Shown: positions 8,249 through 25,845 of the stretch, piece by piece | Position numbering within the stretch: position 1 is the stretch's first letter | Layout: every line of letters starts with the position of its first letter | Assembly (NCBI RefSeq): GCF_040529065.1 | Contig: NZ_CP132343.1 | Span: 4,526,001-4,590,000 of the forward strand | Length of the DNA: 64,000 nt | Source: Xanthomonas sacchari | GTDB taxonomy: Bacteria > Pseudomonadota > Gammaproteobacteria > Xanthomonadales > Xanthomonadaceae | Reading direction: 5' to 3' | Translations under genes and position numbers: made by a program | The notes under the pieces: model-generated | What the model was told of the DNA's origin: nothing | The model's input: the letters and a program-made list of their open reading frames with translations, nothing else | Database searches by the model: none

Positions 8249-8359
8249 CCAGTGACACCGAATGACATGCGAATGCCCACCAGGCAGCGCCAGCAAACCT
8301 TGTAAGCTGCGGGCGTGCCCGCGGCGCGGCAGCGTCAGCAAAAAGAAAGGGAACGCGTT

Positions 8360-9418
8360 TTGGACAAGCCGAAGAAAGCGGTCCGCCGCAAGACCAGCGG
8401 GGTGACGATCGACGAGGTGGCGGCCCTGGCCGGCGTCTCGCCGATGACCGTCTCGCGCGCGATCAACCAGGGCAAGGTGCGCGACGCCACGCGCGAGCGC
8501 GTGATGCGCGCGGTGCGCGAGCTGGGCTACACGCCCAACCTGGCCGCCAGTTCGCTGGCCGCCGCGCAGCACACGCGCATCGCCCTGATCTACACCAATC
8601 CCAGCGGCGCCTACCTGCGCGAACTGCTGGTTGGTTTGCTGCGCGTGGCGTCCAACGCCGCCATCCAGTTGGTCATCCATTACTGGGAAGACCTGGACGC
8701 CGACGCCGAGCGCAAGGCCGCGCGTGCCCTGGCCGGGCGCGTGGACGGCGTGATCCTGCCGCCGCCGTTGTGCGAGTCGCAGGCGGCGGTGACCGAATTG
8801 GTCAAGGCCGGCATCCCGGTGGTCGCGATCGCCGCGGGGCGCCTCAGCGACGCAATCTCCTGCGTGCGCATCGACGACTTCCACGCGGGCAAGGAGATGG
8901 CCGAACACCTGATCGGCCAGGGCCACCGGCGCATCGGCTTCATCCGCGGCCGCCAGGATCTCAGCGCCAGCGCGCGGCGCTACGAGGGCTTCGTCACCGC
9001 CCTGCAGGAGGCCGGGCTGAAGATCGAACCCGGCCTGGTCCAGCAGGGGGATTACACCTATCGCTCGGGCCTGGCCGCCGCCGAGAAACTGCTGTCGCAG
9101 CGGCGGCCACCGACCGCGATCTTCGCCAGCAACGACGACATGGGCGCGGCGGCGATCTCGGTCGCGCACCGGCGCGGCCTGGAGGTGCCGCGCGACCTGT
9201 CGGTGGTGGGCTTCGACGACACCTCGGCCGCCACCACCGTCTGGCCGGAACTCACCACCATCCACCAACCGATCGCCTCGATGGCCGACGCCGCCATCGA
9301 CATCCTGCTGCGCAGCATCCGCCGCAAGCGCGACGACGCGCGCGTGTCCAGCGACCACGTGGTGCCGCACCGGCTGGTGCTGCGCGGTTCGGTCGCCAGC
9401 CCGCCCAAGGGGCGCTAG
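8360..9418 (+). CDS. xylR: LacI-family regulator of xylan/xylose genes
   Basis: DNA-binding repressor of 352 residues. The N-terminal helix-turn-helix (VTIDEVAALAGVSPMTVSRA) is classical LacI, followed by the hinge and a periplasmic-binding-protein-like effector domain (SVVGFDDTSAATTVWPELTT). I chose TTG at 8360 because AAAGGGA lies 7 bases upstream; a GTG at 8315 would add 15 residues without a ribosome site. It is divergent from the GH67 operon and convergent with the secreted GH3 gene, 14 bp apart. By its position and the xyl-box-like operators in the locus it is the likely XylR; the symbol is inferred from X. campestris gene order. It has a close paralogue at 21816-22877. Confidence 0.85.
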   Translation: MDKPKKAVRRKTSGVTIDEVAALAGVSPMTVSRAINQGKVRDATRERVMRAVRELGYTPNLAASSLAAAQHTRIALIYTNPSGAYLRELLVGLLRVASNAAIQLVIHYWEDLDADAERKAARALAGRVDGVILPPPLCESQAAVTELVKAGIPVVAIAAGRLSDAISCVRIDDFHAGKEMAEHLIGQGHRRIGFIRGRQDLSASARRYEGFVTALQEAGLKIEPGLVQQGDYTYRSGLAAAEKLLSQRRPPTAIFASNDDMGAAAISVAHRRGLEVPRDLSVVGFDDTSAATTVWPELTTIHQPIASMADAAIDILLRSIRRKRDDARVSSDHVVPHRLVLRGSVASPPKGR

Positions 9419-9432
9419 CGCAGGACACAGGC

Positions 9433-11985
9433 TCATGCGCTCGGGCATGCGACGGTGGTCTCCGCTTCGTTAAGCGCGCCGAGCGCGACCCGCGACACCG
9501 ACAGCGTCATCGTGCCCGCCGTCGCCAATGCCCAGGGACGATCCAGCTTGCCCAGATCGGCGCCGGCCGCCGCCAGGCACTTGAGCGGCACGCCCACGCG
9601 CGTCCACTGGCCCAGCGGCAGGGTTGCGAGCGTCGGCCCGATCGCCACGCGCGCGGTGCAGCCGCTGCCGCAGCCGACCGCCAGCCACGCCTCGCCGCGC
9701 GGTGCGGCGTCCACCCGCAGCGTGGTCACCAGCATCAGGTCGCCGTTGCTCTCGCGCTGCAGGTCCAGCGGCGTATGCGACTGCAGCGCGACCACCGCTT
9801 CGCGCCCGCCCGACCAGGCGAGGCGGCGGCCGTCCTCCTGCGCCAGGTGATCGACGCCGGTGACGTTCAACAGCGCGCCGTCGAGCGATTCCGGCACGCG
9901 GGTGACGGTCACGCCCTGCCCGTTGCTTCCTTCCAGGCGCAGGGCCATGCCCGGGCCGGCCGCGCCGCGGGCGAAGAACACGCCGGCCGCACCTTCGTTT
10001 CCGGTGAGGCCGGAGACTTCCGGCAACCTGGCCAAGTTGCCGTTGTCGGCATAGCGCAGGCCGTAGCCGAAGGCGAACAGCGGGTCGTAGCCCTGTTGCC
10101 CCACGTTGTTGACGTATTGCGTGGCCGTGCGCGGCCAACTGAAGCTCAGTTTTCCCTTGAAGTCGTGCTGCACGCCGCCCTGCGCGGTGCGCAGCAACAC
10201 GTCGGCGATACCCGCGCCTTCCGAACCGGGCAGCCATGCGGCCACGAAGGCATCGGCCGCATTGAGTTCGCGGTTGACCCACAGCGGGCGCCCGCTGAGG
10301 AACACCGCGACCACGGGAATGCCGTCGGCCTTGAGCCGCTTGATCAGCGCCAGGTCGGTGTCGTCGCCCGGCTTGTAGGCCAGGGTCGGCCGATCGCCCT
10401 GGAACTCCGCGTACGGGTTCTCGCCGAACACCACCACCGCGACGTCCGGCTTGGTCGTGTACTTGCCGTCGACCGCCAGCACGGCCTCGCCGCCCGCGGC
10501 CTTGGCCTGCTGCGCGAAACCTTCGTAGATGGTGTCCGCATTCGGGAAGTCCTTGCGGGTGGTGCCGGTGCCCTGCCAGTTCAGCGTCCAGCCGCCGGCC
10601 TGCTTGCCGACGTCGTTGGCGCCGTCGCCGGCCACCAGGATGCGCTGCTTCGGCGACAGCGGCAGCAGACCGCCCTGGTTCTTCAGCAGCACCAGCGACT
10701 CGCGCACCGCCTGCCGTGCCACCGCCCGATGCGCCGGTGCGCCGATCAGCGCGAACTGCCCACCGACCGCGCGCGCCGACGGCTTGCCCGCCTCGAACAG
10801 GCCCAGCCGCATCTTGACCCGCAGGATCCGGCGCACCGCATCGTCCAGGCGTTGCCGGGAAATGGTGCCGTTCTTCGCCGCCGCCAGCGTGGTGGTGTAG
10901 AAGCCCTTCCAACTGTCCGAGGCCATGGCCATGTCCAGGCCGGCGTTGATGGTGGTGGGGCAATCGGTCGGCGTGCAGCCCTTGACCTGTCCGTGGCCGT
11001 TCCAGTCGCCGACCACGAAGCCACCGAAGTGCATGCGCCCCTTCAGCGCGTCGGTCAGGTAGGTCTTGTGACCATGCATCTTTTCGCCGTTGACGCTGTT
11101 GAACGAGGCCATCGCGGTCTGCGCACCGGCGGCGATGGCCGGGGGATAGCCCGCGGCGTGGATGCGGACCAGCTCGGCCTCACTGATCCTGGTGTCGCCC
11201 TGGTCACGGCCGTCGGTGGTGCCGCCATCGCCCAGGAAGTGCTTGACAGAGGCGATCACGTGGCGGCCATCGAGGAACGCTGGCGTGCCCACCTTGCCCT
11301 GCAGCCCTTCGACCATCGCGCCGGCGTAGCTGGCCACCACCGCGGGCGATTCGGAATAGCCCTCGTAGGTGCGTCCCCAGCGATCGTCCTGCGGCACCGC
11401 CACGGTCGGCGCGAAGGTCCACTCCATGCCGGTGGCGCGCGTTTCCAGCGCGGTGATTTCGCCGATCCGGCGCAGCAGCGCCGGATTGCGGGTCGCGCCC
11501 AGACCGATGTTGTGCGGGAACAGCGTGGCGCCGACGATGTTGCTCTGCCCGTGCACGGCATCGATGCCGAACAGCACCGGAATCGCCTTGCCGCCGTGCG
11601 AGGTGTCCATCGACACCGCATAGAACGCATCGGCCAGCGCCAGCCATTCGGCCGGCGCGGCGTCGTAGCGGCCGCCAGGATCGGAATTGCCGCCGGCCAG
11701 GATCGACCCCAGGCGATAGGTGCGTACGTCCTCCGGCGTCAGGCTGCCGATATCGCCCTGCACCAGCTGGCCGACCTTTTCCTCCACCGTCATGGTGGCG
11801 ATCAGGTCGGTGAGGCGCTGTTCCAGCGCGGGATCCTCGGGCAGCGGCCAGTTCACGCTGGGCCAGGGGCTGGCCTCCACGCGGGCGGGCGCCGCGGCCT
11901 GGACGTCGCCCTTGCACACGGCGAGCGCGAGCAGCAGCGCGGCCAGCAACGCGCCGCTGTGGCGGGTGGAATCGGTGTCGGTCAC
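9433..11985 (-). CDS. Secreted GH3 exo-1,4-beta-glucosidase/xylosidase (ExoP-like)
   Basis: An 850-residue GH3 enzyme with the layout of marine and xanthomonad exo-glucohydrolases: GH3 barrel, second alpha/beta domain and a C-terminal galactose-binding-like sandwich of about 170 residues. GTG start at 11985 has AAGGAG 7 bases upstream. Residues 1-30 are a signal peptide. The nucleophile is Asp327 in FVVGDWNGHG; KHFLGDGGT and the substrate-binding pattern DDRWGRTYEGY are also present. It lies 23 bp downstream of xylA, so it is co-transcribed with xylB-xylA. It differs from the PA14-bearing GH3 at the left edge and the cytoplasmic GH3 at 31151. Family members hydrolyse beta-1,4 and beta-1,3 glucosides as well as xylosides. 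Confidence 0.92.
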   Translation of the reverse strand: MTDTDSTRHSGALLAALLLALAVCKGDVQAAAPARVEASPWPSVNWPLPEDPALEQRLTDLIATMTVEEKVGQLVQGDIGSLTPEDVRTYRLGSILAGGNSDPGGRYDAAPAEWLALADAFYAVSMDTSHGGKAIPVLFGIDAVHGQSNIVGATLFPHNIGLGATRNPALLRRIGEITALETRATGMEWTFAPTVAVPQDDRWGRTYEGYSESPAVVASYAGAMVEGLQGKVGTPAFLDGRHVIASVKHFLGDGGTTDGRDQGDTRISEAELVRIHAAGYPPAIAAGAQTAMASFNSVNGEKMHGHKTYLTDALKGRMHFGGFVVGDWNGHGQVKGCTPTDCPTTINAGLDMAMASDSWKGFYTTTLAAAKNGTISRQRLDDAVRRILRVKMRLGLFEAGKPSARAVGGQFALIGAPAHRAVARQAVRESLVLLKNQGGLLPLSPKQRILVAGDGANDVGKQAGGWTLNWQGTGTTRKDFPNADTIYEGFAQQAKAAGGEAVLAVDGKYTTKPDVAVVVFGENPYAEFQGDRPTLAYKPGDDTDLALIKRLKADGIPVVAVFLSGRPLWVNRELNAADAFVAAWLPGSEGAGIADVLLRTAQGGVQHDFKGKLSFSWPRTATQYVNNVGQQGYDPLFAFGYGLRYADNGNLARLPEVSGLTGNEGAAGVFFARGAAGPGMALRLEGSNGQGVTVTRVPESLDGALLNVTGVDHLAQEDGRRLAWSGGREAVVALQSHTPLDLQRESNGDLMLVTTLRVDAAPRGEAWLAVGCGSGCTARVAIGPTLATLPLGQWTRVGVPLKCLAAAGADLGKLDRPWALATAGTMTLSVSRVALGALNEAETTVACPSA

Positions 11986-12008: not shown

Positions 12009-13343
12009 TCAGCGCAGCAGGTACTGGTTGATCAGGTTCTCGTAGCGCTCCTGGCGGCCGCTGATCTGCCGCGGCTCGCCGCCCTTCGCGCCTAATGCGG
12101 CCAGCTCGACGAGGCCGAGCGCACCGCGCGCGAAGTCCTGGCCGGCGCCGCTGTCGAAGCTGGCATAGCGCTCCTGGCGCCACTGTTCCCAGGGCGAGTC
12201 GGTGAGCAGCGCGTGGGCCACTTCCAGTCCGCGGGCGAAGGCATCCATGCCGCCGATGTGGGCAATGAACAGATCCTCCAGCTCGGTGGACTCGCGGCGC
12301 ACCTTGGCGTCGAAGTTCAGGCCGCCCTCCAGGCCACCCTGGCGCAGTACCACCAGCATGGCGCCCACGGTGTCGTACAGGTCGGTGGGGAACTGGTCGG
12401 TATCCCAGCCGTTCTGCGCGTTGCCGCGGTTGGCATCGATGCTGCCCAGCAGGCCGTGGTCGGACGCCACCTGCAGGTCGTGTTCGAAGGTGTGGCCCGA
12501 CAGCGTGGCGTGGTTGGCCTCGATATTGAGCTTGAAGTCCTTGTCCAGGCCATGCTGCTTCAGGAAGCCCGCCACCGTCGCGCTGTCGAAGTCGTACTGA
12601 TGCTTCATCGGCTCCATCGGCTTGGGCTCGATCAGGAAGTTGCCCTTCAGGCCGATGCTGCGGCCGTAGTCGCGCGCCATGGTCAGGAAGCGCGCGAAGT
12701 GCTCCAGTTCGCGCTTCATCTGCGTATTGACCAGCGAGGCATAGCCTTCGCGGCCGCCCCAGAACACGTAATGCTCGCCGCCCAGCTCCACCGTCGCCTC
12801 CAGCGCCGCCTTCACCTGCACGGCGGCGCGCGCCACCACGGCGAAATCGGGATTGGTCGCGGCACCGTTCATGTAGCGCGGATGCGAGAACAGATTGGCC
12901 GTGCCCCACAGCAGTTTCATGCCGGTCGCGTCCTGGCGCGCCTTGGCCAGGCCGACCATGTGCTTGAGGTTCTTCTCGTACTGCCCGGCATCGTCGGCGT
13001 CCGGCGCCAGGTCGATGTCGTGGAAGCACCAGTACGGCACGCCGAGCTTGGTGAAGAACTCGAACGCCGCATCCACTTTCGCCTCGGCGCTGGCCAGCGG
13101 CGCACCGACCTCCCAGAGGAAGTGGCGCGTGCCCGGGCCGAACGGATCCTGCCCGGCGTTGCAGAAGGTGTGCCAGTAGCAGACCGCGAAGCGCAGATGG
13201 TCCTGCATGGTCTTGCCGCCGACGACCTTGTTGGCGTCATAGACCTTGAAGGCCAGCGGGTTGTCCGAGCCGCGGCCCTCGAAGGGGATGCGGCCGATGC
13301 CGGGGAAGTATTCCTTGGCGCCGATGAAGGGCTGGGTGTGCAT
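12009..13343 (-). CDS. xylA: Xylose isomerase
   Basis: Converts D-xylose to D-xylulose in the cytoplasm, the first step after uptake. At 444 residues it fits the longer class II isomerases. Metal-binding and active-site patterns are intact: [19 protein letters not shown] (metal-ligand Glu), [12 protein letters not shown] with catalytic/metal-binding residues, and [18 protein letters not shown]. Start ATG at 13343 is preceded by AGGAA. It sits 44 bp after xylulokinase and 23 bp before the secreted GH3 gene, in one transcription direction with the TonB receptor group upstream. Confidence 0.97.
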
Positions 13344-13387: not shown

Positions 13388-14890
13388 TCAACCGCGGAAC
13401 AGCGGCATGACGGCATCGAGGTAGCGCAGGAAGCGCGCATAGGCCGCGGCATAGGCCTGGGTGCGCGCCGGATCCGGACGGGCGGACAGCTGCGGATCGA
13501 CCGCCACATGCTGTTGCGCGATGTCGGCGATGGAAGCGGCATCGCCGCGTGCCAGGCCCACGGCCCACAGCGCCTGCAAGGCCGCGCCGAACGCCGCGCC
13601 TTCCGGCTGCGCGGGCACGTCCACCGGCAGGCCGAACACATCGGCCACCAATTGCCGCCACGCGCCGCTGTGGCTTCCGCCGCCGGTCAGCACGATGCGC
13701 TCGAACTGCATGCCGGCACGCACGAAGGCGTCGAAGCCGTACTTCAGGCTGTACGTCGCCCCTTCCATCGCCGCGCGATAGAGGTGGGCCGGGGTCATGT
13801 TGTGCGTGTCCAGGCCCGCCAGCACCCCCTTGCCCAGCGGCAGGTCGGGCGTGCGCTCGCCGTTGAGGAACGGCAGCATCACCAGTCCGTCGGCGCCGGG
13901 CGCGGTGGCGTGCAGGTGCGCATCGCCGTCGCGGGTGCTGAAGCCGAACGCGGCGGCGACCTGCTCGGTCGCCACGGTGCAGTTCATCGTGCAGATCAGC
14001 GGCAACCAGCCGCCGGTGGAGGAGCAGAACGCGGCCCACGCGCCGTCCGGGTCGACCACCGGCGTGTCGGAGTAGGCGAACAGGGTGCCGGAGGTGCCCA
14101 GGCTCATCGCCAGGCGGCCGGGCACGACGCAGCCGGTGCCGATGGCCGCCATCATGTTGTCGCCGCCGCCGACGGCGACCTTCAGCGTCGCCGGCACGCC
14201 GAGCAAGTTGGCCGCGGCCGGGTCGATGTCGAACAAGGCATCGGGTGCGGCCAGGCGCGGCAGGCAGTCCGCCAGATCGCGCTGCGGATCGGTGGCGCGC
14301 AGCAGCTCGGTCGACCAGGTGCGGGTGCGCACGTCCAGCCAGCCCGTGCCCGACGCATCGCCGTATTCGCAGAAGCGCTGGCCGGTCAGTACGAAGTTGA
14401 GGTAGTCGTGCGGCAGCAGAATGGTCGCGAGGCGCGCATACGCCTCGGGCCGATGGGTCTTGGTCCACGGCAGCTTGGACGCGGTGTAGCCGGCCAGGAT
14501 CGGGTTGCCCGCCAGCGCGATGGTGCGCGCCGCGCCGCCGAGCGCGTCCATGATCTGCACGCACTCGGCCGAGGTGCTGGTGTCGCACCACAGCTTGGCA
14601 GGTGCCAGCACCTCGCCTGCCGCATCGACCGGCACGAACCCATGCTGCTGGCCCGAGACCGCCAGCGCGGCGATGCACGAGCGCAGCGCAGGGTCGATGG
14701 CGTGGAAGCAGGCCTGCAGGGCCGCGACCCAGTTGGCCGGATGTTGTTCACGGCTGCCATCGGCGGTGGAATGCAACTCCAGCGGCGCGCTGCTGCTGGC
14801 CACGACGCTGCGCCCGACCGGGTCATAGACCACGACCTTCAGGCTCTGCGTTCCCGCATCGATTCCGGCTACCAGTTCCCGTTCTTCCAC
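13388..14890 (-). CDS. xylB: Xylulokinase
   Basis: FGGY-family sugar kinase of 500 residues that phosphorylates D-xylulose to xylulose 5-phosphate. The N-terminal phosphate-binding segment [14 protein letters not shown], the substrate-loop [11 protein letters not shown] and the second ATP-domain signature [15 protein letters not shown] are present. I placed the start at GTG 14890, where AAAAGG lies about 10 bases upstream. The more upstream ATG at 14920 is part of the palindromic operator TGATAGCGCTAAC and would add ten atypical residues. Followed at 44 bp by xylA. Induction by relief of LacI-type repression is suggested by the operator 16 bases upstream of the chosen start. Confidence 0.93.
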
Positions 14891-14944: not shown

Positions 14945-16474
14945 TTACGCCAGGGACACGCTCCGCTGCCAGACGTCCGGGGTCGCCTTGCAGTAGCGTT
15001 CGATGAACTCCGCCTGCGATGGCATCGCCGCGCTGGCCTGCTGCAGCGGCTGCCGGATCCGCGTCAGCAGCGTGCGCAGATCCGCATCGCCGATGGCGGC
15101 GGCCAGCGGATGCGGCGGTCCCGGCTGGATGCCCTGCCCCAGCAACACGCTGGTCCAGGAATCCACGCGGAACAGCTCGCCCGGGTCCTGCCAGGCGTGC
15201 GCCCGTTCGCGCCAGGCGCGCAGCCGGATCGCCAGCGACTCCGGCAGCGCCATCTCGCGGCAGGCTTTCCACATCGGCTCGTCGCGCTGGGTGGCGTGGT
15301 AGTGCAGGATGATGAAATCGCGTACGTGTTCCATCTCCTGGCGGCTGACCGTGTTGTACAGCTCCACCAGCGCCGGGCTGATGCCGTCGTGGGGAAACAG
15401 CTGGATCAGGCGCACCACGGCGCTGATGGTCAGGTGGATGCTGGTCGATTCCAGCGGCTCGATGAAGCCACTGGCCAGGCCCAACGCCACCACGTTCTTG
15501 TTCCACGCCTGCAGCCTGCGCCCGCTGCGGAACGGCACCAGCCACGGGTCGCGCAGCGGCGGACCGTCGACGTCGCGCAGCAGCTTGGCGTGCGCCTCGT
15601 CGTCGGACATGTGCCGACTGGAGAACACCAACCCGCAACCGACCCGGTGCTGGAGCGCGATATGCCAGCGCCACCCGGCCTCGTGCGCGATGGCACGGGT
15701 ATACGGCACCGGCGGCGCGACCGCCTCGGTCTGCACCGCCACGGCGCGATCGCTGGGCAACCACTCGCGCCAGTCTTCGTAGCCGGTGTGCAGGGTCTGC
15801 TCGGTCAGCAGACCGCGGAAGCCGGTGCAGTCGATGAACAGGTCGCCTTCGATGAGCTGCCCGTCTGCCAGCAGCAGCGACGCGACGGAGCCGTCGTGCG
15901 CATGCTGCCGCACTTCGCGGATCTGCCCTTCCACCCGGCGCAAGCCGTAGCCTTCGGCCTTCCTGCGCAGGAACTTCGCGTAGAGCGCGGCGTCGAAGTG
16001 ATAGGCGTAGTTGACCTGCGGCTGGGTCTCCAGCGAGAACCGGTCCGCACGCGAGGCGACGCTTTCCAGGCAGAAATCGCCCAGGTCCGACGGCATGCCG
16101 CGGCGCAGGCTGTCCAGCCAGAAATGATGGAACGGCGTGGCCCAGGTGCCCTGCCCGATCGTGCCGAACGGATGGATGAAACGATCGCCCGGACGGCGCC
16201 AATGTTCGAACGAGATCGACAGCTTGAACGTGCCGGCCACGGCGCGCAGGAACTCCTGTTCGTCGATCTGCAGAAAGCGGTGAAAGGTGCGGATCGGCGG
16301 CACGGTCGACTCGCCGACGCCCACGGTGCCGATCTGCTCGGACTCCACCAGGGTGATGTCCAGGCGATCGCGGAACTGGTGGGCCAGCGCGCAGCCGGCC
16401 AGCCAGCCCGCGGTGCCGCCGCCGGCGATGACGACCTTGCGGATGCGTCCGTCCGTGGTGTTGGCCAGGTTCAC
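14945..16474 (-). CDS. Tryptophan-halogenase-family flavoenzyme
   Basis: FAD-dependent halogenase-like protein, 509 residues. The GTG start at 16474 follows GGGGAT; the nearby upstream ATG is out of frame. It has the N-terminal dinucleotide-binding motif GGGTAGWLAG. The conserved lysine that forms the halogenating species is Lys84 in AGTFKLSISF, and the catalytic Glu is in GFIEPLESTS. The WxWxIP signature appears as WRWHIA, with Ala for Pro. Halogenases of this clade recur beside TonB receptors in Xanthomonas and Caulobacter carbohydrate loci, and some are reported to brominate indoles in vitro. Its true substrate here is unknown. It follows the cupin-like gene by 13 bp and precedes xylB. Confidence 0.9.
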   Translation of the reverse strand: MNLANTTDGRIRKVVIAGGGTAGWLAGCALAHQFRDRLDITLVESEQIGTVGVGESTVPPIRTFHRFLQIDEQEFLRAVAGTFKLSISFEHWRRPGDRFIHPFGTIGQGTWATPFHHFWLDSLRRGMPSDLGDFCLESVASRADRFSLETQPQVNYAYHFDAALYAKFLRRKAEGYGLRRVEGQIREVRQHAHDGSVASLLLADGQLIEGDLFIDCTGFRGLLTEQTLHTGYEDWREWLPSDRAVAVQTEAVAPPVPYTRAIAHEAGWRWHIALQHRVGCGLVFSSRHMSDDEAHAKLLRDVDGPPLRDPWLVPFRSGRRLQAWNKNVVALGLASGFIEPLESTSIHLTISAVVRLIQLFPHDGISPALVELYNTVSRQEMEHVRDFIILHYHATQRDEPMWKACREMALPESLAIRLRAWRERAHAWQDPGELFRVDSWTSVLLGQGIQPGPPHPLAAAIGDADLRTLLTRIRQPLQQASAAMPSQAEFIERYCKATPDVWQRSVSLA

Positions 16475-16487
16475 GACAATATCCCCA

Positions 16488-17507
16488 TCAGCGGTTGAGC
16501 CGCGCCAGCAACTGCGCGCGCACCCGGCGCGCCCGTGCCTCGTCGAACGGGGCCAGTTCGCCCCGGGCGGCTTCGGGCAGGTGCTGCCCTGCGCGCTCGC
16601 CGGGGCCGAACACGTAGTAATCGAAGAGCTTGGCCCAGGCCTGCTTCTCGCGCGCCGGCAGATCGCGCAGCGCCCACATCGCATGCTGCAGCGCCGTCAG
16701 CGGCGAGGGCAGGAAGGCCGGCGCACTGCGCCACCAGTAGTTCACCAGCACATTGAACTGTGCCAGGCTGCGCACGTGGTGCCACCACATGCTCGGGATG
16801 AACAGCGCATCGCCCGGCTCCAACTCGGCGTGCCGCGCGCTGGCGAGGGCATCGCGGAAGCGCGGATAACGCGCGAAGTCGGGGCGGTCGACATCGACCA
16901 CGCTGACCACCTGGCCGCCCGGCGTGGGGTCCAGCGGCCCCGGATACAGGTTGTCGATCTGCTCCGGCGGAAACAGGGTGACGCGGCGCCGGCCCACGGC
17001 ACAGCAGGCCAGGTTGTCCGGCGTGTCGAAATGGCAGGAGGCGGTCACGCGGTTGCCGATCCAGATGCTCGCCAGTGCATCGATGCCCTGCCCGGCCAGG
17101 CCGGCGTCGTTGGCCTGCGCGAAGCCGGGCAGCGCCCGCGCGATCGGCAGCGAGGCGACATAGTAGGTGGGCGGCCGCGGATCCTCGAAGGTGGCGGCGA
17201 TCGCCTCCAGCACCTGCGTGAGCGGTCCGCGGCGGACCTCGAAATTCAACGCGGTGAACTCGGCGTTGTAGAACGGGCGTCCTTCGATCCTGGGTTCGCC
17301 GAAGGAATACGGAACAGGCACGCCCGCATCGAACCCGCGCAGGTAGGCCATTGCGTCCTGCGTGGAGCGCAGCCCCGCCTGCACCAGCCCCCAGTCGCGC
17401 GCGATGCCGCGCAACACCACCGGCTCCCCCGCCGCCACCAGGTCCTGCAGTGGCAGCGCGGTGGGCTGCACGCCCTCCAGTGTCCGCATGGCGCCGCCGT
17501 CCGGCAT
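16488..17507 (-). CDS. Cupin-like (JmjC-type) protein
   Basis: A 339-residue member of the cupin_8/JmjC-like group, a fold used by Fe(II)/2-oxoglutarate oxygenases and hydroxylases. A possible metal triad is visible: His and Asp in SCHFDTPDN (about residue 183) and His in WWHHVRS (about 264). The pattern DALFIPSMWWHH is typical for this family. It begins 2 bp after the SapC stop with AGGA as ribosome site, so it is coupled to SapC. In xanthomonad and Caulobacter carbohydrate loci this protein, SapC and the halogenase travel together with TonB receptors. No substrate is established; protein hydroxylation or a partner role for the halogenase are guesses. Confidence 0.85.
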   Translation of the reverse strand: MPDGGAMRTLEGVQPTALPLQDLVAAGEPVVLRGIARDWGLVQAGLRSTQDAMAYLRGFDAGVPVPYSFGEPRIEGRPFYNAEFTALNFEVRRGPLTQVLEAIAATFEDPRPPTYYVASLPIARALPGFAQANDAGLAGQGIDALASIWIGNRVTASCHFDTPDNLACCAVGRRRVTLFPPEQIDNLYPGPLDPTPGGQVVSVVDVDRPDFARYPRFRDALASARHAELEPGDALFIPSMWWHHVRSLAQFNVLVNYWWRSAPAFLPSPLTALQHAMWALRDLPAREKQAWAKLFDYYVFGPGERAGQHLPEAARGELAPFDEARARRVRAQLLARLNR

Positions 17508-17509
17508 GC

Positions 17510-18268
17510 TCAGTTCCTGCCTGCCGCGCCGGCGGCATCCTGCAGGCGCAGGCGTCGCTGCTTTTCGGCGATCAGGCGGCGCATGTTATGCAGCGAGGCC
17601 AACATCAGGAACGCCCCTTCCAGATAGCCGGCGCGGTTGAGCGCGGCCAGCGCGGTACCGTCCAATTGGACCAGGCGCTCGCGGTCGATCGCGTGCAAGC
17701 CGTTGACGCCGACCCGATGCTGCGCATCGAGTTGCACGTCGAGCGTCACCGGCTGGATCAGCCCGTGCGCATCGAGCGCGGCGAACATGTCCGCGCCGAA
17801 GGCGTTGCCCTCGTGGATGCCGCGCAGCACCGTGGCGATGTGGTCGAGATAGGGCGTGTTGCCGCCCTGCGGCAGGAACACCGGCTCGCCCTGCATCGCC
17901 GTCACCCGCGGATGCTCCATGTCCACGTGCAGGACCGCTTCCTGAGTGAGCACGCCATCGACCCGCTGCTCCTGGAAGCCGATCAGGAACGGCCCCTTGG
18001 CCGCCGCCCCGGGCAGATACGAGGCCGCCCAGCGCCGCTCCTGCAGGAACAGGTTCTCGTGCTGCTCGAAGCCCAGCAGCGCCACCGACTGCCAGGCGCC
18101 GTCCGCCGGGTCCTTGCGCAGGAAGATCGGATACTCCCGCTGCAACTCGGCGAACTCGCTCGGGTAGGCCGGCAGCATGCCCACCGCGTCGCCGAACTCC
18201 GGCCCGAAGTCGGTGGCCACGCGCAGGTCGCGATGAGCGATGTTGTTGAGCATTTCGTAACGCGGCAT
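17510..18268 (-). CDS. SapC family protein
   Basis: A 252-residue SapC-like protein. The start MPRYEMLNNIAH at 18268 has GGGAG about 12 bases upstream and fits the family length; a longer frame to 18337 lacks a good site. The family is named after a Campylobacter surface-layer export gene, but the role in Xanthomonas and Caulobacter carbohydrate loci is unknown. It has no clear signal peptide or membrane segment. Visible family features are FGDAVGMLPAYPSEFAELQ and the C-terminal HNMRRLIAEKQRRLRLQ helix. It sits 93 bp downstream of the TonB-dependent receptor and 2 bp upstream of the cupin-like gene. Confidence 0.88.
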   Translation of the reverse strand: MPRYEMLNNIAHRDLRVATDFGPEFGDAVGMLPAYPSEFAELQREYPIFLRKDPADGAWQSVALLGFEQHENLFLQERRWAASYLPGAAAKGPFLIGFQEQRVDGVLTQEAVLHVDMEHPRVTAMQGEPVFLPQGGNTPYLDHIATVLRGIHEGNAFGADMFAALDAHGLIQPVTLDVQLDAQHRVGVNGLHAIDRERLVQLDGTALAALNRAGYLEGAFLMLASLHNMRRLIAEKQRRLRLQDAAGAAGRN

Positions 18269-18361
18269 CGTGTTGCGCACTCCCGGTTGACGCCTTGCAG
18301 CGGACGCCGCCGCGAGCGCAGCGGCGTCGGTGGGCACGCGAAGAGAAACTCCCCGCCTTCT

Positions 18362-21300
18362 TCAGAACCTGTAGCGAACGCCCAGCATGTAACGCGGACT
18401 CTGGTCGGCCAGCTTCACGATCATCTGCGAGGTACGCGAGCGCCAGCGCACGTCCTCGCCAGTCAGGTTGATCGCTTCCAGGCCGAACGACCAGTTGTCG
18501 TTCAACGTGTAGTTCACGCTGAGGTCCCACTGTTCGTAGGGTTCCACATAGTACGGGTTGCGGCTGGTGCCCTGGTTGGCCAGGATCAGGTACTGGTCGC
18601 GCCAGTTCCAGGCCAGGCGCACCGACCAGCCGTACTTCTCGTACATCAGCACCGCGTTGGCGGTGTCGCTCAGGCCGGTGAGCGCGAACTGGTCGATGCC
18701 CGGGTCGCCACCGTTGTCGTAGCCGACGTCGCCCTTGACGATGGTGTAGTTGGCGAGGATGCCGAACCCGGTATCGCCGAGGAAGTACTGCCCGCCGAGC
18801 TCCCAGCCGTGCAGCTTGGCCTGGTTCTGGTTGATCGGGCGGTTGACGTTGAACTCGTACAGCGGGTCGTCGGCCTCGCCGTAGAGATCGTAGGCCGCTT
18901 CGGTCGCCAGCACCTGCGCACCGGTGCCGTTGTAGGCAGCCAGGCCGGCCGGGTTGTTGCGCAGCAGGGCCAGCGCGGTGAACAGCGAGGTATCGTTGGC
19001 CGAGCACGCCGCCGCATTGGCCGGGCCGACCTGGGCCAGACAGGCGCCGCTGGTGAGGAACGCCAGCGCCGTCCTCGCGTCCGGACCGGAGGTCGGATCG
19101 CGCAGGCCGTACAGGTTCTCCTGCACCACGGTGTTGCCGATGAAGTTGTTGACCGACTTGTTCCAGTACGTCACCGACAGATAGCTCGCGTCGGCGAAGT
19201 ACCACTCCAGCGCCAGGTCGAGGTTGTCCGATTCCAACGGCTTCAGCGACGGGTTCTGCGCGGTACCGCTGGCGCGCGAGGACGGATCGATCAGCACCGA
19301 GCCGAACGGCTGCTGCGCCCCGGGACCGGCATACAGATTGCCGATCGGCGCACGCGCGATGCTCTTGCCGAACGAGACGCGACCCTTCAGCGTGTCGGTG
19401 AGGTCGATGCTGAAATCCAGGTTGGGCAGGATGTAGCTGTACGTGGTCTTTTCGCTGAAGGGTTGCTGCTCGTTGGACAGCACCACGCGGAAGTCGTTGT
19501 TGGACTGCCACTCGATCGCCTCGGGCGTGGCGATGATCGAGGTCGACACCACGTCGGTGGTCTCGTAGCGCACGCCGAGCCGGGTATTGGTACGCCGACC
19601 GGCCAGCTCGCCATCCAGTTCCACCTGGAAATACGCCGAGCGGGTCTTCTCCTCCACGAAGTTGTCGGCGGCGCGCTGCGGGCTCACGCCCAGGCCGACG
19701 CCGTACTGGCTGGCCGCCCATTCGGCGAGGCGGCCCGCATCGCCGCGCCATGCCGGCCAGCTGGTGCCGCTGTAGTCATGGAACAGGCCAATGATGTTGA
19801 CCGGCTGCATCAGGTTCATCAGGCCGCCGGCGGTATCCCGGTCGACGTTGGCCACGCCCCAGTCGCCCAGGGTGGAATACGCCTCGGCGGCCTGGATGCG
19901 GTGGGTGGTCGACTTGTTGGTGTCCACGCCGAACTGGAAGCGGCCCTGGTCGAAACTCCACTCGCCGTCCACGCGCGCCTGCTTGATCTGGCTGATCTGG
20001 CTCTGCGAATTGACCCGCAGTACCTGCGTGCCGATCTCGCCCGGCACGAAGCCCGGGTTGACCACGCCGTTGACGTTGGCCGCGGCAGCGGCGTCGCTCG
20101 GATACCAGACCTGGGTGCCGATCGGCAGGCCGTTGTTGAAGTTCAGTTCCTGCACCCACGAACCGCCGCAGTGGGGGCCGGTGGTGCAGTTGTTGGTGCC
20201 GGCGATGCTCATGAACAGCGAGCCGCCGCCGGTCAGCGGATCGTTGGGGCGGCTTTCGTTCTTCGAGTCGTGCGCGTCGAAGCTCAGCTTGAGCCGGTCG
20301 GTCACGTTCCACACCGCATTCAGGCCGAGCGAGCCCAGCTTGTACTTTTGCATGCTGCGCTGCTGCTCGAGGCCGAAATCCTTGGTGCCGGCGATTTCGC
20401 GGATATAGGTCGGCACGGCCACCGCACCGCTGGTGTCGAAGGTCACGTCGGTGTAGTTGCTGTTCTGCAACCACATGCCCTGCTCGCCACGATTCTCGGT
20501 GATCTCGTTGGTCGAATAGGTGTAGTCCAGGGTCAGGGTCAGGCTGTCGGTGGGCGCGAACTGCAGCACCGCCTGGCCGTTGACGCGCTCGCGTTCGAAC
20601 TCGGAGAACGCATAGCGCAGGTCGTTCGGGCGCGCGTACAGCGCGCCGATCTGCGGCGCATTCACCACGGTCGGGTTGCCGGGCATCGAGCCGGTCCACG
20701 GCTGCACGTTCCAATAGTTCTCGGTGGCCTGCACCGAGCCGCCCTTGCGCTTCTGGTAGCTCGCGCTCACGCCGACGCCGAAGGTCTTGTCCGGATTGGT
20801 GTAGCTGAAGATGCCCGACAGCTCCGGGGTGATGTCGTCGTCGAACGGCTGGCTGCGGTCGGAAACCGCCTTGGCGCCAGCGCTGGCGACGATGCCCTGG
20901 TGGTCGAACGGGCGCGCGGTCAGGATATTGATGGTGGCGCCGATGCCACCGCTGGGCATGTTGGCCTGGCTGGTCTTGTAGACCTCGATGCCGTTGATCG
21001 CTTCGGCGGCGAGCTGGGCGAAGTTGAAGGCGCGGGTACCGCCGTCGACGCCGCCGATGGCGACCTGCCCGGCGGCGCCGAACGCATCGGCGCCCGGCAT
21101 CTGCCGCCCGTTGAGCGTCACCATGTTGAACTGCGGGCCGAAGCCGCGCGCGGTGACCTGCGCGCCTTCGCCATCGCGCCGCTCGATGGAGATGCCGGTG
21201 ATGCGCTGCAGGGATTCGGCCAGGTTGGTATCGGGGAACTTGCCTATGTCCTCGGCACTGATCGCATCCACCACGCCCGCGGCGTCGCGCTTGATGTCCA

Positions 21301-21499
21301 TCGCCTGGCTGAGGCTGTTGCGCAGGCCGGTGACCTGGACGGTGTCCAGTTGCGTCGGGCTGCTCTGCGCCTGCTGCTGCGCGGCCGGCGCCGGCGCCGG
21401 CGTTGCGGCGTCCTGGGCGAAGGCGGGATTGATGACCAGCACGCCGCCGACGAACGTGAACATGGCCCTGGATTTGAACTTCGCCAGTGCGCGGCTCAT
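18362..21499 (-). CDS. TonB-dependent receptor, carbohydrate-utilisation type
   Basis: Outer-membrane active transporter of 1045 residues, probably for xylo-oligosaccharides given the locus. Residues 1-28 are a signal peptide (ends PAFA/QDA). A TonB-box-like LDTVQVTG follows a Pro/Ala/Gln linker at about 50. The plug domain (about 60-190) shows IGKFPDTNLAESLQRITG and VTARGFGPQFNMVTLNGR. The remaining residues form the 22-stranded barrel, ending in the terminal Phe (VRYRF) needed for outer-membrane insertion. Large receptors of this type recur beside SapC, cupin-like and halogenase genes. Transcription is divergent from the second LacI gene and a palindromic operator lies between them. Confidence 0.95.
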   Translation of the reverse strand: MSRALAKFKSRAMFTFVGGVLVINPAFAQDAATPAPAPAAQQQAQSSPTQLDTVQVTGLRNSLSQAMDIKRDAAGVVDAISAEDIGKFPDTNLAESLQRITGISIERRDGEGAQVTARGFGPQFNMVTLNGRQMPGADAFGAAGQVAIGGVDGGTRAFNFAQLAAEAINGIEVYKTSQANMPSGGIGATINILTARPFDHQGIVASAGAKAVSDRSQPFDDDITPELSGIFSYTNPDKTFGVGVSASYQKRKGGSVQATENYWNVQPWTGSMPGNPTVVNAPQIGALYARPNDLRYAFSEFERERVNGQAVLQFAPTDSLTLTLDYTYSTNEITENRGEQGMWLQNSNYTDVTFDTSGAVAVPTYIREIAGTKDFGLEQQRSMQKYKLGSLGLNAVWNVTDRLKLSFDAHDSKNESRPNDPLTGGGSLFMSIAGTNNCTTGPHCGGSWVQELNFNNGLPIGTQVWYPSDAAAAANVNGVVNPGFVPGEIGTQVLRVNSQSQISQIKQARVDGEWSFDQGRFQFGVDTNKSTTHRIQAAEAYSTLGDWGVANVDRDTAGGLMNLMQPVNIIGLFHDYSGTSWPAWRGDAGRLAEWAASQYGVGLGVSPQRAADNFVEEKTRSAYFQVELDGELAGRRTNTRLGVRYETTDVVSTSIIATPEAIEWQSNNDFRVVLSNEQQPFSEKTTYSYILPNLDFSIDLTDTLKGRVSFGKSIARAPIGNLYAGPGAQQPFGSVLIDPSSRASGTAQNPSLKPLESDNLDLALEWYFADASYLSVTYWNKSVNNFIGNTVVQENLYGLRDPTSGPDARTALAFLTSGACLAQVGPANAAACSANDTSLFTALALLRNNPAGLAAYNGTGAQVLATEAAYDLYGEADDPLYEFNVNRPINQNQAKLHGWELGGQYFLGDTGFGILANYTIVKGDVGYDNGGDPGIDQFALTGLSDTANAVLMYEKYGWSVRLAWNWRDQYLILANQGTSRNPYYVEPYEQWDLSVNYTLNDNWSFGLEAINLTGEDVRWRSRTSQMIVKLADQSPRYMLGVRYRF

Positions 21500-21729: not shown

Positions 21730-21743
21730 TGATAGCGCTACCA
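21730..21743. promoter_or_regulatory. xyl-box-like operator upstream of TonB receptor
   Basis: Reads TGGTAGCGCTATCA on the minus strand, a near-perfect palindrome centred on AGCGCT and one base from the X. campestris xyl-box as I remember it. It lies between the divergent receptor and lacI genes, so it may control both, including autoregulation of the second LacI protein. Confidence 0.78.
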
Positions 21744-21815
21744 TCACGTCACGGCGCAGACTACGCACCGGCGATATCGCTTGTCATCATGCGTCGCAAC
21801 AAAGGACGGCATTCT

Positions 21816-22877
21816 TTGAACAACACCCCCAAAACGGCGCGTCGCCGAGGGAACGCGGTCACCATCGACGACGTCGCCGCGCATGCCGGCGTCTCGCCGA
21901 TGACCGTCTCGCGCGTCACCCACGGTCACGCCGGCGTGCGCGAGAGCACACGCGAACGGGTGATGCGCAGCGTGCGTGCACTGGACTACCGGCCCAACCC
22001 GGCCGCCAGCGCGCTCGCCGCCGCGCAGCACACCTGCATCGCGTTGATCTACACCAATCCCAGCTCCAGCTATCTGCGCGAACTGCTAGTCGGCGCGCTG
22101 CGCGGCTCCACGCGCGTGGCCGCGCAGCTGGTGATCGCCACCTGGGACGGGCTGGGTCCGCGCGCGCGTCGCGCAGCCGCACGTACGCTCTGCGGCAGCG
22201 TGGCGGGCGTGCTGCTTCCTGCGCCCTTGTGCGAATCGAAGGCCATCGTCGCCGTGTTCGTCGAGGCCGGCATCCCCGTGGTCTCCATCGCGTCGAGCCG
22301 CTTCCGCGACAGGATGTCCTGCGTGCACATCGACGATCGCCGTGCGAGCCACGACATGGTGTCGCACCTGATCGCGCACGGTCATACCCGCATCGGCTAC
22401 ATCGCCGGCGACCCGAACCAGACCGCCAGCGCGCACCGCTGGCAGGGCTACCGCGATGCGCTGGCGGATGCGGGCATCGGCTACGACGCCGCGCTCGTGC
22501 AGCCCGGCGACTTCACCTATCGTGCGGGGCTGGAGGCCGCCGAGCGGCTGTTGGCGCTGCAGCCGCGCCCCACTGCGATTTTCGCGAGCAACGACGACAT
22601 GGCCTCGGCGGTGGTGTCGGTGGCGCATCGTCGGCGTCTGAAGGTGCCGGAGGATCTGTCGGTGGTGGGATTCGACGACACGTCGGCGTCGACGATGGTG
22701 TGGCCGGAGCTGACCACCATCCATCAGCCGGTGGCGGACATGACCGATGCGGCCATCGATCTGTTGTTGCGGGAGATCCGGCAGGCGGCTGGTTCAGAGC
22801 GCGCGTATGTCGATCATGTCGTGCCGCATCGATTGGTCGCGCGTGATTCGGTCTCGCGACAACTGTTGGATCGCTAG
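21816..22877 (+). CDS. Second LacI-family regulator, paralogue of xylR
   Basis: A 353-residue LacI-type repressor, very similar along its whole length to the protein at 8360-9418. The recognition helix is identical (GVSPMTVSR), as are stretches of the effector domain (IFASNDDM, SVVGFDDTSA, VWPELTTIHQP). Start taken as TTG 21816, with AAAGGA 9 bases upstream; an ATG at 21789 would add nine residues. It is divergent from the TonB receptor. Identical recognition helices suggest overlapping operators, while effector-pocket differences may give another inducer. It is the last gene of the sugar locus before the low-GC segment. Confidence 0.88.
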   Translation: MNNTPKTARRRGNAVTIDDVAAHAGVSPMTVSRVTHGHAGVRESTRERVMRSVRALDYRPNPAASALAAAQHTCIALIYTNPSSSYLRELLVGALRGSTRVAAQLVIATWDGLGPRARRAAARTLCGSVAGVLLPAPLCESKAIVAVFVEAGIPVVSIASSRFRDRMSCVHIDDRRASHDMVSHLIAHGHTRIGYIAGDPNQTASAHRWQGYRDALADAGIGYDAALVQPGDFTYRAGLEAAERLLALQPRPTAIFASNDDMASAVVSVAHRRRLKVPEDLSVVGFDDTSASTMVWPELTTIHQPVADMTDAAIDLLLREIRQAAGSERAYVDHVVPHRLVARDSVSRQLLDR

Positions 22878-25170: not shown

Positions 25171-25212
25171 CTTTGCTGTTGCTTCAAGCTTTCGTGTCAG
25201 ACAAGAAGAACC

Positions 25213-25278
25213 GTAGAAGCGGCTTCAGCCGCGACCAACGTAATCGGTCACGCATGTCGCGGCGTAAGCCGCTCCTAC
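25213..25278. repeat. REP-like palindrome (degenerate copy)
   Basis: Imperfect palindrome beginning GTAGAAGCGGCTTCAGCCGC and ending in GCCGCTCCTAC, located in the spacer between the two inverted arms. It belongs to the same family as the better preserved copies at 29653 and 52902. Confidence 0.75.
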
Positions 25279-25343
25279 AATCCAGCGGCCGCCGTAGTAA
25301 CAGCAAGAGCAAGTGCGATAGCGAGAGCAAGTGCAAGAGCAAA

Positions 25344-25645
<302 letters not shown>

Positions 25646-25845
25646 GCATCTTGCTTGGTGCGGAAACAGTCAATCGGAAAAATCAGACCGCCGAAGACGC
25701 GCTGCCAACACCGAGTTCCCCGCCACCCATCGCATCGGCCAAGTCGTCGACAAGATCGACGCACCAGCGCGCGCCATCCGCCTCGCAACTGCGCTACCTT
25801 GCACCCAGGCGCGCCCTCGCGCTCAAGTCGCCCCCGGAGATCCCC

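Follow-up and report, generated by a model that had tools for sequence, protein, structure and literature searches.

A halogenase-family protein, a JmjC/Cupin_8 protein and a SapC protein linked to TonB-dependent receptors: a candidate receptor-tailoring cassette in a xylan-type locus of Xanthomonas sacchari

We analysed a 64 kb stretch of the Xanthomonas sacchari genome (the window) that includes a group of minus-strand genes combining sugar uptake, sugar catabolism and three proteins of less obvious function. The group begins with a TonB-dependent receptor of 1045 aa (18362..21499), assigned to the TIGR01782 (TonB-Xanth-Caul) subfamily at 780 bits and carrying Pfam plug and barrel domains. 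Downstream lie genes for a SapC-family protein (PF07277, 252 aa, 17510..18268), a JmjC/Cupin_8 protein (PF13621, 339 aa, 16488..17507) and a flavin-dependent halogenase (FDH) family protein with a GTG start (PF04820, 509 aa, 14945..16474). These are followed by xylulokinase xylB (13388..14890; TIGR01312, 511 bits) and xylose isomerase xylA (12009..13343; TIGR02630, 668 bits), both over cut-off, and by a GH3 glycosidase with a hydrophobic N-terminus by hydropathy (9433..11985; PF00933/PF01915). A LacI-family regulator identified by profile match (8315..9418, plus strand) converges on the GH3 gene, and beyond it lies a GH67 alpha-glucuronidase family gene (6104..8248, minus strand; PF07488, 504 bits). 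The gaps of 93, 2 and 13 bp from receptor to halogenase given in the earlier note, with xylB and xylA next in line, are exact with the chosen starts. A second LacI-family gene, also found by profile match, diverges from the receptor gene (21789..22877, plus strand). Between the two lies a palindrome, TGATAGCGCTACCA (21730..21743, plus strand), with one mismatch to what we take to be the XylR-box motif; it was the sole match in 64 kb at ≤2 mismatches, where 0.15 were expected and 15 of 100 shuffles contained one. By profile searches of the window proteins the region thus combines a TonB receptor, carbohydrate enzymes and a regulator, as expected of a CUT locus.

The FDH covers nearly the entire PF04820 profile (624 bits, profile positions 1-456 of 458), and alignment places its FAD-binding GxGxxG motif at G18-G23. 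Both catalytic residues previously read from the sequence are present: Lys84 (269 of 285 in an alignment that includes the window protein) and the Glu of PLEST, which is Glu342 (268 of 285). Each is found in all 117 relatives that follow a cupin gene and in 58 of 58 FDHs that follow a receptor gene, and both are missing from 12 of 46 FDHs that come after another FDH. The halogenase signature motif WxWxIP reads WRWHIA in the window protein, with both Trp and the Ile retained and Ala in place of Pro, a substitution also seen in 37 of the 117 cupin-following FDHs. Since the motif Pro is replaced we term this a halogenase-family protein and not a proven halogenase. Weak matches to QhpG (29 bits) and LodB (21 bits), far under the curated cut-offs of 240 and 400, connect it to flavoenzymes acting on protein-bound Trp. 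Its nearest solved relatives are Xcc4156 (6y1w), 9luq and BrvH (6frl), although from scores and alignments Xcc4156 does not seem to be the orthologue of either full FDH in this genome, which has seven PF04820 matches when five weak matches of partial length (E 2e-15 to 5e-4), left out here, are counted. In the available portions of the published work, Xcc4156 and BrvH accept indole and not free Trp, their native substrates are described as unknown and a peptide substrate is considered possible (PMC7336383, PMC5945002).

The JmjC/Cupin_8 protein (239 bits) carries within its Cupin_8 domain the HxD...H iron triad of a 2-oxoglutarate (2OG) oxygenase, as had been proposed from the sequence; the triad, H159-x-D161...H243, is found in 132 of 132 aligned sequences, and N165 and R174 are likewise invariant. 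The nearest solved relatives by sequence are the protein hydroxylases FIH and JMJD5 (E 5e-21). R174 aligns with the 2OG-binding Lys of FIH, which we take to be Lys214, and may stand in for it in 2OG binding; because Arg occupies this position the protein was not filed as an FIH-type asparaginyl hydroxylase.

The conservation of both active sites bears on the possibility that the three proteins now have no dedicated chemistry at this locus and are carried along by operon structure, through hitch-hiking or redox side roles. The altered WxWxIP-type motif, the loss of catalytic residues from some FDHs placed behind another FDH and the existence of a sister receptor group without a local cassette all fit such a reading. 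However, Lys84 and Glu342 are intact in every cupin- and receptor-following FDH and the JmjC metal triad in every aligned sequence, and these relatives span several gammaproteobacterial families as well as other classes, which makes this the least likely of the readings considered.

The SapC protein matches its family profile over the full length (216 bits, PF07277 positions 1-220 of 220), and its AlphaFold model is confident (mean pLDDT 97.6). The receptor has an N-terminal hydrophobic stretch followed by AFAQ, whereas the N-terminus of SapC is not strongly hydrophobic and by crude hydropathy alone the N-terminal stretches of SapC, the JmjC protein and the FDH are all less hydrophobic than those of the receptor, GH3 and GH67 proteins. 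The value for the FDH stems from its FAD-binding motif. None of the three has an obvious export signal by this crude measure, and on this sequence evidence they are probably cytosolic.

In the best 80 of 110 relatives, which are close by design, the order and strand of receptor, SapC, cupin and FDH genes were intact in all 80; a good xylB match was in reach in 34, and the four-gene order was kept as well in the 46 without one, a split constrained by the 10 kb reach of the flanks and by the ends of contigs. The recurrence of such modules at Xanthomonas TonB-receptor loci, asserted in the earlier note, is borne out by these loci, and a Caulobacter control genome contains the cassette families. 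Cassette relatives occur in several families of Gammaproteobacteria and in other classes. Across nine genomes 50 of 63 FDHs had a TIGR01782 receptor no more than 6 kb away, where 2-9% would be expected under random placement. Only 36 of the 103 receptors had an FDH inside the same 6 kb limit; an FDH is therefore not a general requirement for receptors. (In this genome TIGR01782 gave 41 matches, only 14 of them over the cut-off used.) A receptor was detected by profile in 99 of 120 FDH regions from Proteobacteria, some of which overlap and which represent part of the listed matches, with the best five candidates scored per genome; another survey scored two per genome. In nine of the other 21 regions a receptor of a different type is present, confirmed by Pfam in seven and by similarity in two, and one of the nine is the region of the second FDH of this genome. 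A search of a limited literature library found no publication describing this association of cassette and receptor.

Seven genomes with two cassettes allowed the partners to be compared between paralogs. Among the 128 within-genome swaps, the native combination with the receptor ranked first for SapC, for the cupin and for the FDH alike. Partners stay with their own receptor, although physical linkage within the operon alone could explain this result. The genes are also tightly packed, with median gaps of 7 bp between SapC and cupin, 43 bp between cupin and FDH and 166 bp between receptor and SapC. This spacing bears on a further explanation, in which the cassette enzymes produce a small halogenated signal or peptide; its synthesis would simply be induced alongside sugar uptake, and the receptor would import or sense it. 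Many PF04820 enzymes belong to natural-product pathways, and a biosynthetic role would suit those loci that have several FDHs in succession and the many cassettes joined by DUF6445, a second predicted 2OG oxygenase. (DUF6445 had no match in this genome, but the control genomes equally gave none, so its absence here is not proven.) However, because the genes abut, a precursor gene would hardly fit between SapC, cupin and FDH, even if the receptor-SapC gap could accommodate a very short one, and no synthetase family appears among the 25 families listed for either neighbour set. We regard a signal pathway as quite unlikely.

The sugar genes differ between loci while the cassette stays constant. 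Among 74 scanned neighbour proteins of the FDH-receptor loci of types B and D (from 323 called flanking genes), 21 were alpha-amylases, and GH31, GH97 and fucosidase genes were also present; at three loci (L048, L040 and L043) the five neighbours scanned included no sugar gene. For type A, 102 of 189 called flanking genes were scanned, and no aromatic-degrading family was found among the listed 25 of 90 neighbour families. The earlier note had suggested ferulate or coumarate esterified to xylan as the target. Because FDHs accompany receptors beside alpha-amylase genes, at GH31, GH97 and fucosidase loci, and next to other receptor types, we rejected this as a general explanation. The four-gene unit is neither a chance arrangement nor specific to xylan, and since it accompanies receptors whatever the sugar served, the three-gene block seems to serve the receptor, or else its cargo, and not xylan as such.

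A cargo-directed role would have imported oligosaccharides carry aromatic or peptidic decorations, with the cytosolic halogenase and hydroxylase converting the released decoration and the pairing with one receptor reflecting cargo specificity. The stable receptor-partner pairing fits this equally well as it fits receptor modification, the probably cytosolic enzymes adjoin both uptake and catabolic genes, and the related BrvH and Xcc4156 are reported, in the parts of those studies available (PMC7336383, PMC5945002), to act on small indoles. It sits poorly, however, with FDHs at alpha-glucan loci, with the loci lacking sugar genes among their scanned neighbours and with the lack of aromatic-degrading families among those listed for type A. 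Alpha-glucan sugars have, to our knowledge, no aromatic group. We consider a cargo substrate possible but doubtful.

The reading we favor, at a probability of roughly 0.4, is that the enzymes of a cassette work in the cytosol on the receptor encoded beside them and modify it before it is exported. It is favored because the linkage of FDHs to receptors holds for different sugar types and receptor subfamilies while partners stay with their own receptor, because protein hydroxylases are the closest solved relatives of the JmjC protein and a peptide substrate is thought possible for Xcc4156 and BrvH, at least in the portions available (PMC7336383, PMC5945002), and because the FDH resembles, if weakly, QhpG and LodB. 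SapC, the JmjC protein and the halogenase would together form a cytosolic oxidative-tailoring cassette for one outer-membrane receptor. Xylose sensing would cause receptor and cassette to be made together, assuming co-regulation, and modification would act on the unfolded receptor chain before or during its export. The JmjC protein would hydroxylate receptor side chains and the halogenase brominate or oxidise them, with SapC as an adaptor or further enzyme helping the other two; the changed side chains might tune the surface loops of the receptor or its resistance to attack, for example by phage. We infer that the enzymes are active and that the receptor is their substrate, and likewise which residues would be changed and to what purpose. 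A more tentative extension, which we think rather unlikely to hold, is that a large class of TonB receptors is matured in the cytosol by a PF04820 halogenase, SapC, a JmjC hydroxylase and sometimes DUF6445, giving brominated or hydroxylated sugar receptors.

Modification of the receptor, raised in the earlier note for its aromatic residues, stands as the leading hypothesis, but no receptor residue was shown to depend on the halogenase or cupin. Six conserved Trp residues (263, 343, 397, 547, 664 and 966) each persist in at least 13 of the 14 receptors whose retrieved flank has no FDH. W664 is present in 49 of 49 receptors with the full cassette and in 1 of 53 without an FDH nearby (40 of the 52 lacking an FDH within 15 kb in eight genomes, plus 13 of this genome), but 13 of 13 receptors of a sister group without a local cassette keep it as well, and we therefore rejected it as a halogenation site in favor of a clade feature. 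F573, F696, F883 and Y918 are lost in most of the 14 receptors without an FDH in the retrieved flank; however, two receptors followed by an FDH (L362 and L363) carry Ala at 918 and one without (L346b) keeps Tyr, again indicating a clade feature, and all four were discarded as targets. At position 669 Glu occurs in 11 of 11 receptors of FDH-SapC-cupin-FDH loci, with 29 Asp and 5 Glu at SapC-cupin-FDH loci and 2 Asp and 1 Glu at SapC-cupin-FDH-FDH loci; a link to the extra halogenase was rejected because the residue follows the tree, which makes the position uninformative.

Asn at 981 was considered as a JmjC target. On one alignment it is found in 50 of 55 receptors with a JmjC gene, thus missing from 5, and in none of 9 without, and no other of the 170 conserved columns was likewise missing in each of the 9 receptors, which come from Cupin_8-negative genomes (none detected at E 1e-25). 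Among the 18 receptors that lack a local cupin, 5 have an NP one residue off in the same loop, one of them belonging to those 9, and once a shift of two residues is allowed retention rises to 4 of 9 and 9 of 18, which does not exceed that of other columns. The losses are also few, on a FastTree tree shown without support values. As the column is not special after the shift, hydroxylation of N981 was rejected, and the residue may serve as a weak lead from sequence at most. Judged from strand order, the loops holding 664 and 981 would face outside.

Placing this halogenase branch in receptor operons matters since BrvH and Xcc4156 are its solved and assayed members and, in the sections of the reports available, lack a known natural substrate (PMC7336383, PMC5945002); its position points to a small set of candidate substrates, either the receptor or its cargo. 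Were receptors modified, outer-membrane proteins would be shown to mature in a new way; were cargo modified, decorated glycans would have been overlooked by sugar-utilisation maps.

The closest described locus is that of the XCC4120 receptor of Xanthomonas campestris, a xylan/xylose CUT locus induced by xylose and xylan and with a shared upstream palindrome, according to the available part of its description (PMC1790865). Both loci join a TonB receptor to xylan-metabolism genes, and the window locus has a LacI gene and the XylR-box-like site as well. Halogenase, SapC and cupin all go unmentioned in the accessible sections of that description, and the word 'halogenase' had zero occurrences in a full-text search (PMC1790865). 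For the FDH, Xcc4156 (6y1w, 543 bits) and BrvH (6frl, 434 bits) are among the closest solved relatives and share its catalytic Lys and Glu, but the motif Pro is Ala in the window protein, whose halogenation activity is predicted from sequence. FIH and JMJD5 belong by sequence to the same JmjC/Cupin_8 family and have the HxD...H triad in common with the window cupin, although the match is limited to residues 147-274 and Arg174 takes the place of the FIH Lys. QhpG and LodB work in a quinone cofactor context that is absent here, but they belong to the same flavoprotein superfamily as the FDH and share with the proposed cassette the idea of protein side-chain modification.

The cassette, in which the earlier note had placed genes for SapC, a cupin-like protein and a halogenase between a receptor and xylB and xylA, is arranged as described on the minus strand of the window. 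The TonB receptor (TIGR01782, 21499-18362) is followed by SapC (PF07277, 18268-17510), a JmjC/Cupin_8 protein (PF13621, 17507-16488), a flavin halogenase family protein with a GTG start (PF04820, 16474-14945), xylB (14890-13388), xylA (13343-12009), GH3 (11985-9433) and GH67 (8248-6104). A convergent LacI gene lies between GH3 and GH67 (8315-9418, plus strand), and a second diverges from the receptor (21789-22877, plus strand). The palindrome between the receptor and this divergent gene (21730-21743) is XylR-box-like, with one mismatch to the motif and 0.15 chance hits expected. Repetitive DNA occupies positions 25180-25680, where several readings give frames such as RQRQRQ, CRCRCR and LPLPLP. 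The genome carrying the window is 4.96 Mb, and its closest named relatives among the best 80 of 110 relatives are Xanthomonas sp. F10 and NCPPB 1128 (97% halogenase identity).

The unit is receptor-linked rather than xylan-linked, and its xylan context is incidental. We scanned genome contigs with the window halogenase, keeping the best 80 of 110 relatives, and the one-strand order receptor, SapC, cupin, halogenase was present in all 80, with the SapC frame split in one. Good matches to xylB and xylA were within reach in 34 and 30 of the 80 respectively, using 10 kb flanks on contigs some of which end sooner. Three loci (L048, L040 and L043) had no sugar gene among the five neighbours scanned, while GH3 and GH9 genes were present at L063 and L083. 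Strong PF04820 matches occurred in 55 of 299 Proteobacteria genomes. Among 120 regions with 8 kb flanks drawn from the listed matches, 99 contain a receptor matching a profile built from the window's receptor type; nine of the other 21 contain another receptor type, four of these with a PF25183 barrel, which we take to be Oar-like, and in 12 no receptor was found within the 8 kb flanks. Across nine genomes 50/63 halogenases lie within 6 kb of a TIGR01782 receptor, where random placement would give 2-9%. In the window's own genome the second full halogenase (L152, G000:C1:210065-227444, 615-9491) sits directly behind a TonB receptor of another type, with a PF25183 barrel, and further upstream a gene encodes a large F5/8 type C domain protein. 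Near one complete cassette a second same-clade receptor has SapC alone behind it (L087:13050-17080).

Receptor and partners are also co-inherited. For 47 type-A cassettes (receptor, then SapC, cupin, halogenase) the receptor and partner distance matrices correlate with r of 0.83-0.89, and in seven genomes with two cassettes no other of the 128 possible within-genome swaps correlated as well as the real pairing, whichever of the three partners was compared. Since the paralogous receptors in these genomes share only 34-41% identity, the units have been together for a long time. Operon linkage alone could give such co-inheritance, which does not prove contact.

The catalytic residues reported in the earlier note are intact and widely kept in relatives. 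Halogenase Lys84 and Glu342 are kept in 269 and 268 of 285 aligned sequences respectively, the window included, and both are present in 117/117 cupin-following and 58/58 receptor-following relatives; the WxWxIP-type motif of the window halogenase ends in Ala, as it does in 37 of the 117. The JmjC protein retains its HxD...H triad, with H159, D161, H243 and N165 kept in 132/132, and Arg174 occupies the position of the FIH Lys. The SapC structure model is confident (mean pLDDT 97.6). Among halogenase-family genes following another halogenase, as the middle one does at L162:9413-10753, 12/46 lack both catalytic Lys and Glu, and some tandem copies therefore look catalytically dead. The best 15-residue N-terminal hydropathy means are lower for SapC (0.6), the JmjC protein (1.2) and the halogenase (1.4, from its FAD-binding motif) than for the receptor (1.8), GH3 (2.5) and GH67 (2.1), so that by this simple measure the three enzymes are probably cytosolic. 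The likeliest reading, to which we give a rough probability of 0.4, is that the cassette would modify the receptor before export. The genes, their families, the catalytic residues, the linkage and the co-inheritance are observed, and regulation, enzyme activity, substrate, the place of the reaction and its purpose are inferred.

The sugar genes beside the cassette vary. Typing of 105 receptors in the 120 regions, some of which overlap, gave 34 of type A, 40 of type B (halogenase only or without SapC), seven of type C (SapC and halogenase, no cupin), 15 of type D (halogenase divergent) and nine with none of these. GH3 (13), LacI-type sensor domains (9) and DUF6445 (9) are commonest among 102 type A flanking proteins; among 74 flanking types B and D, alpha-amylase is commonest (21), with GH31 (3) and GH97, GH9, GH10 and fucosidase (2 each). 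Halogenase and receptor are thus constant and the sugar is variable. That the cassette instead modifies the cargo ranks next, somewhat less likely than receptor modification; the earlier note's suggestion of xylan phenolics gains no support as a general account.

For modification of the receptor, comparison of residue columns across receptors with and without cassette genes yielded several candidates. All 49/49 cassette receptors keep W664, which falls in a predicted surface loop, versus 1/53 receptors without a nearby halogenase; it was rejected as halogenase-dependent because 13/13 sister receptors without a local cassette also keep it. These sister receptors (L346-L357, L361-L364) mostly have no cassette gene in their short flanks, yet the loop motif with W664 is retained; two of them, L362 and L363, have a halogenase frame behind the receptor. 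Six strongly conserved Trp were set aside: of 14 receptors whose examined flank has no halogenase, 13 or all 14 keep each of them, although some of these genomes contain halogenases elsewhere. Y918 and three Phe differ in the 14 receptors, yet L362, L363 and L346b break the link with the halogenase. N981 is lost in 9/9 receptors from genomes where Cupin_8 was not found and kept in 50/55 with a JmjC gene, the sole such column of 170; once loop misalignment is allowed 4/9 keep it and the contrast is no longer special. Its losses on the tree are few, chiefly one nested and one basal clade. These columns therefore demonstrate no receptor target.

A further family, DUF6445 (PF20043), occurs 43 times in the loci examined, some overlapping (for example L022:10285-10968), with 37 of the 43 on the same strand and <=150 bp from a halogenase gene. 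Several relatives, including L023, L026 and L027, carry it between halogenase and xylB; it is missing from the window, and a search without a working control found none in this genome. The 42 distinct members keep the His and Asp of HxD in 42/42, and a later His and an Arg in 41 each. This HxD...H...R arrangement, which we take to be the 2OG-Fe(II) oxygenase pattern, suggests that DUF6445 is probably another 2OG oxygenase.

The halogenases Xcc4156 and BrvH are active on indole and prefer bromide, their native substrates being given as not known and a peptide substrate as possible (PMC7336383, PMC5945002); the word TonB is absent from both papers, as are TonB, SapC and cupin from PMC8269204. 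Halogenases are mentioned only in the xanthomonadin pigment cluster in PMC3838355 and only in a gene list in PMC10110911. On the strength of transcripts, one line of PMC11337851 proposes that an unknown flavin halogenase may influence virus-host receptor interactions, in keeping with the receptor-modification reading. No description of the halogenase-receptor association was found in the literature searched, although it may be in print in subscription journals. The receptor cassette is real, conserved and so far unexplained. A xylan/xylose carbohydrate utilisation locus with TonB receptor (CUT locus) is described around XCC4120 (PMC1790865); for LacI-type XylR control, PMC13282271 gives a summary. 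The cassette locus resembles this known kind of CUT locus, with the halogenase cassette as its variant feature.
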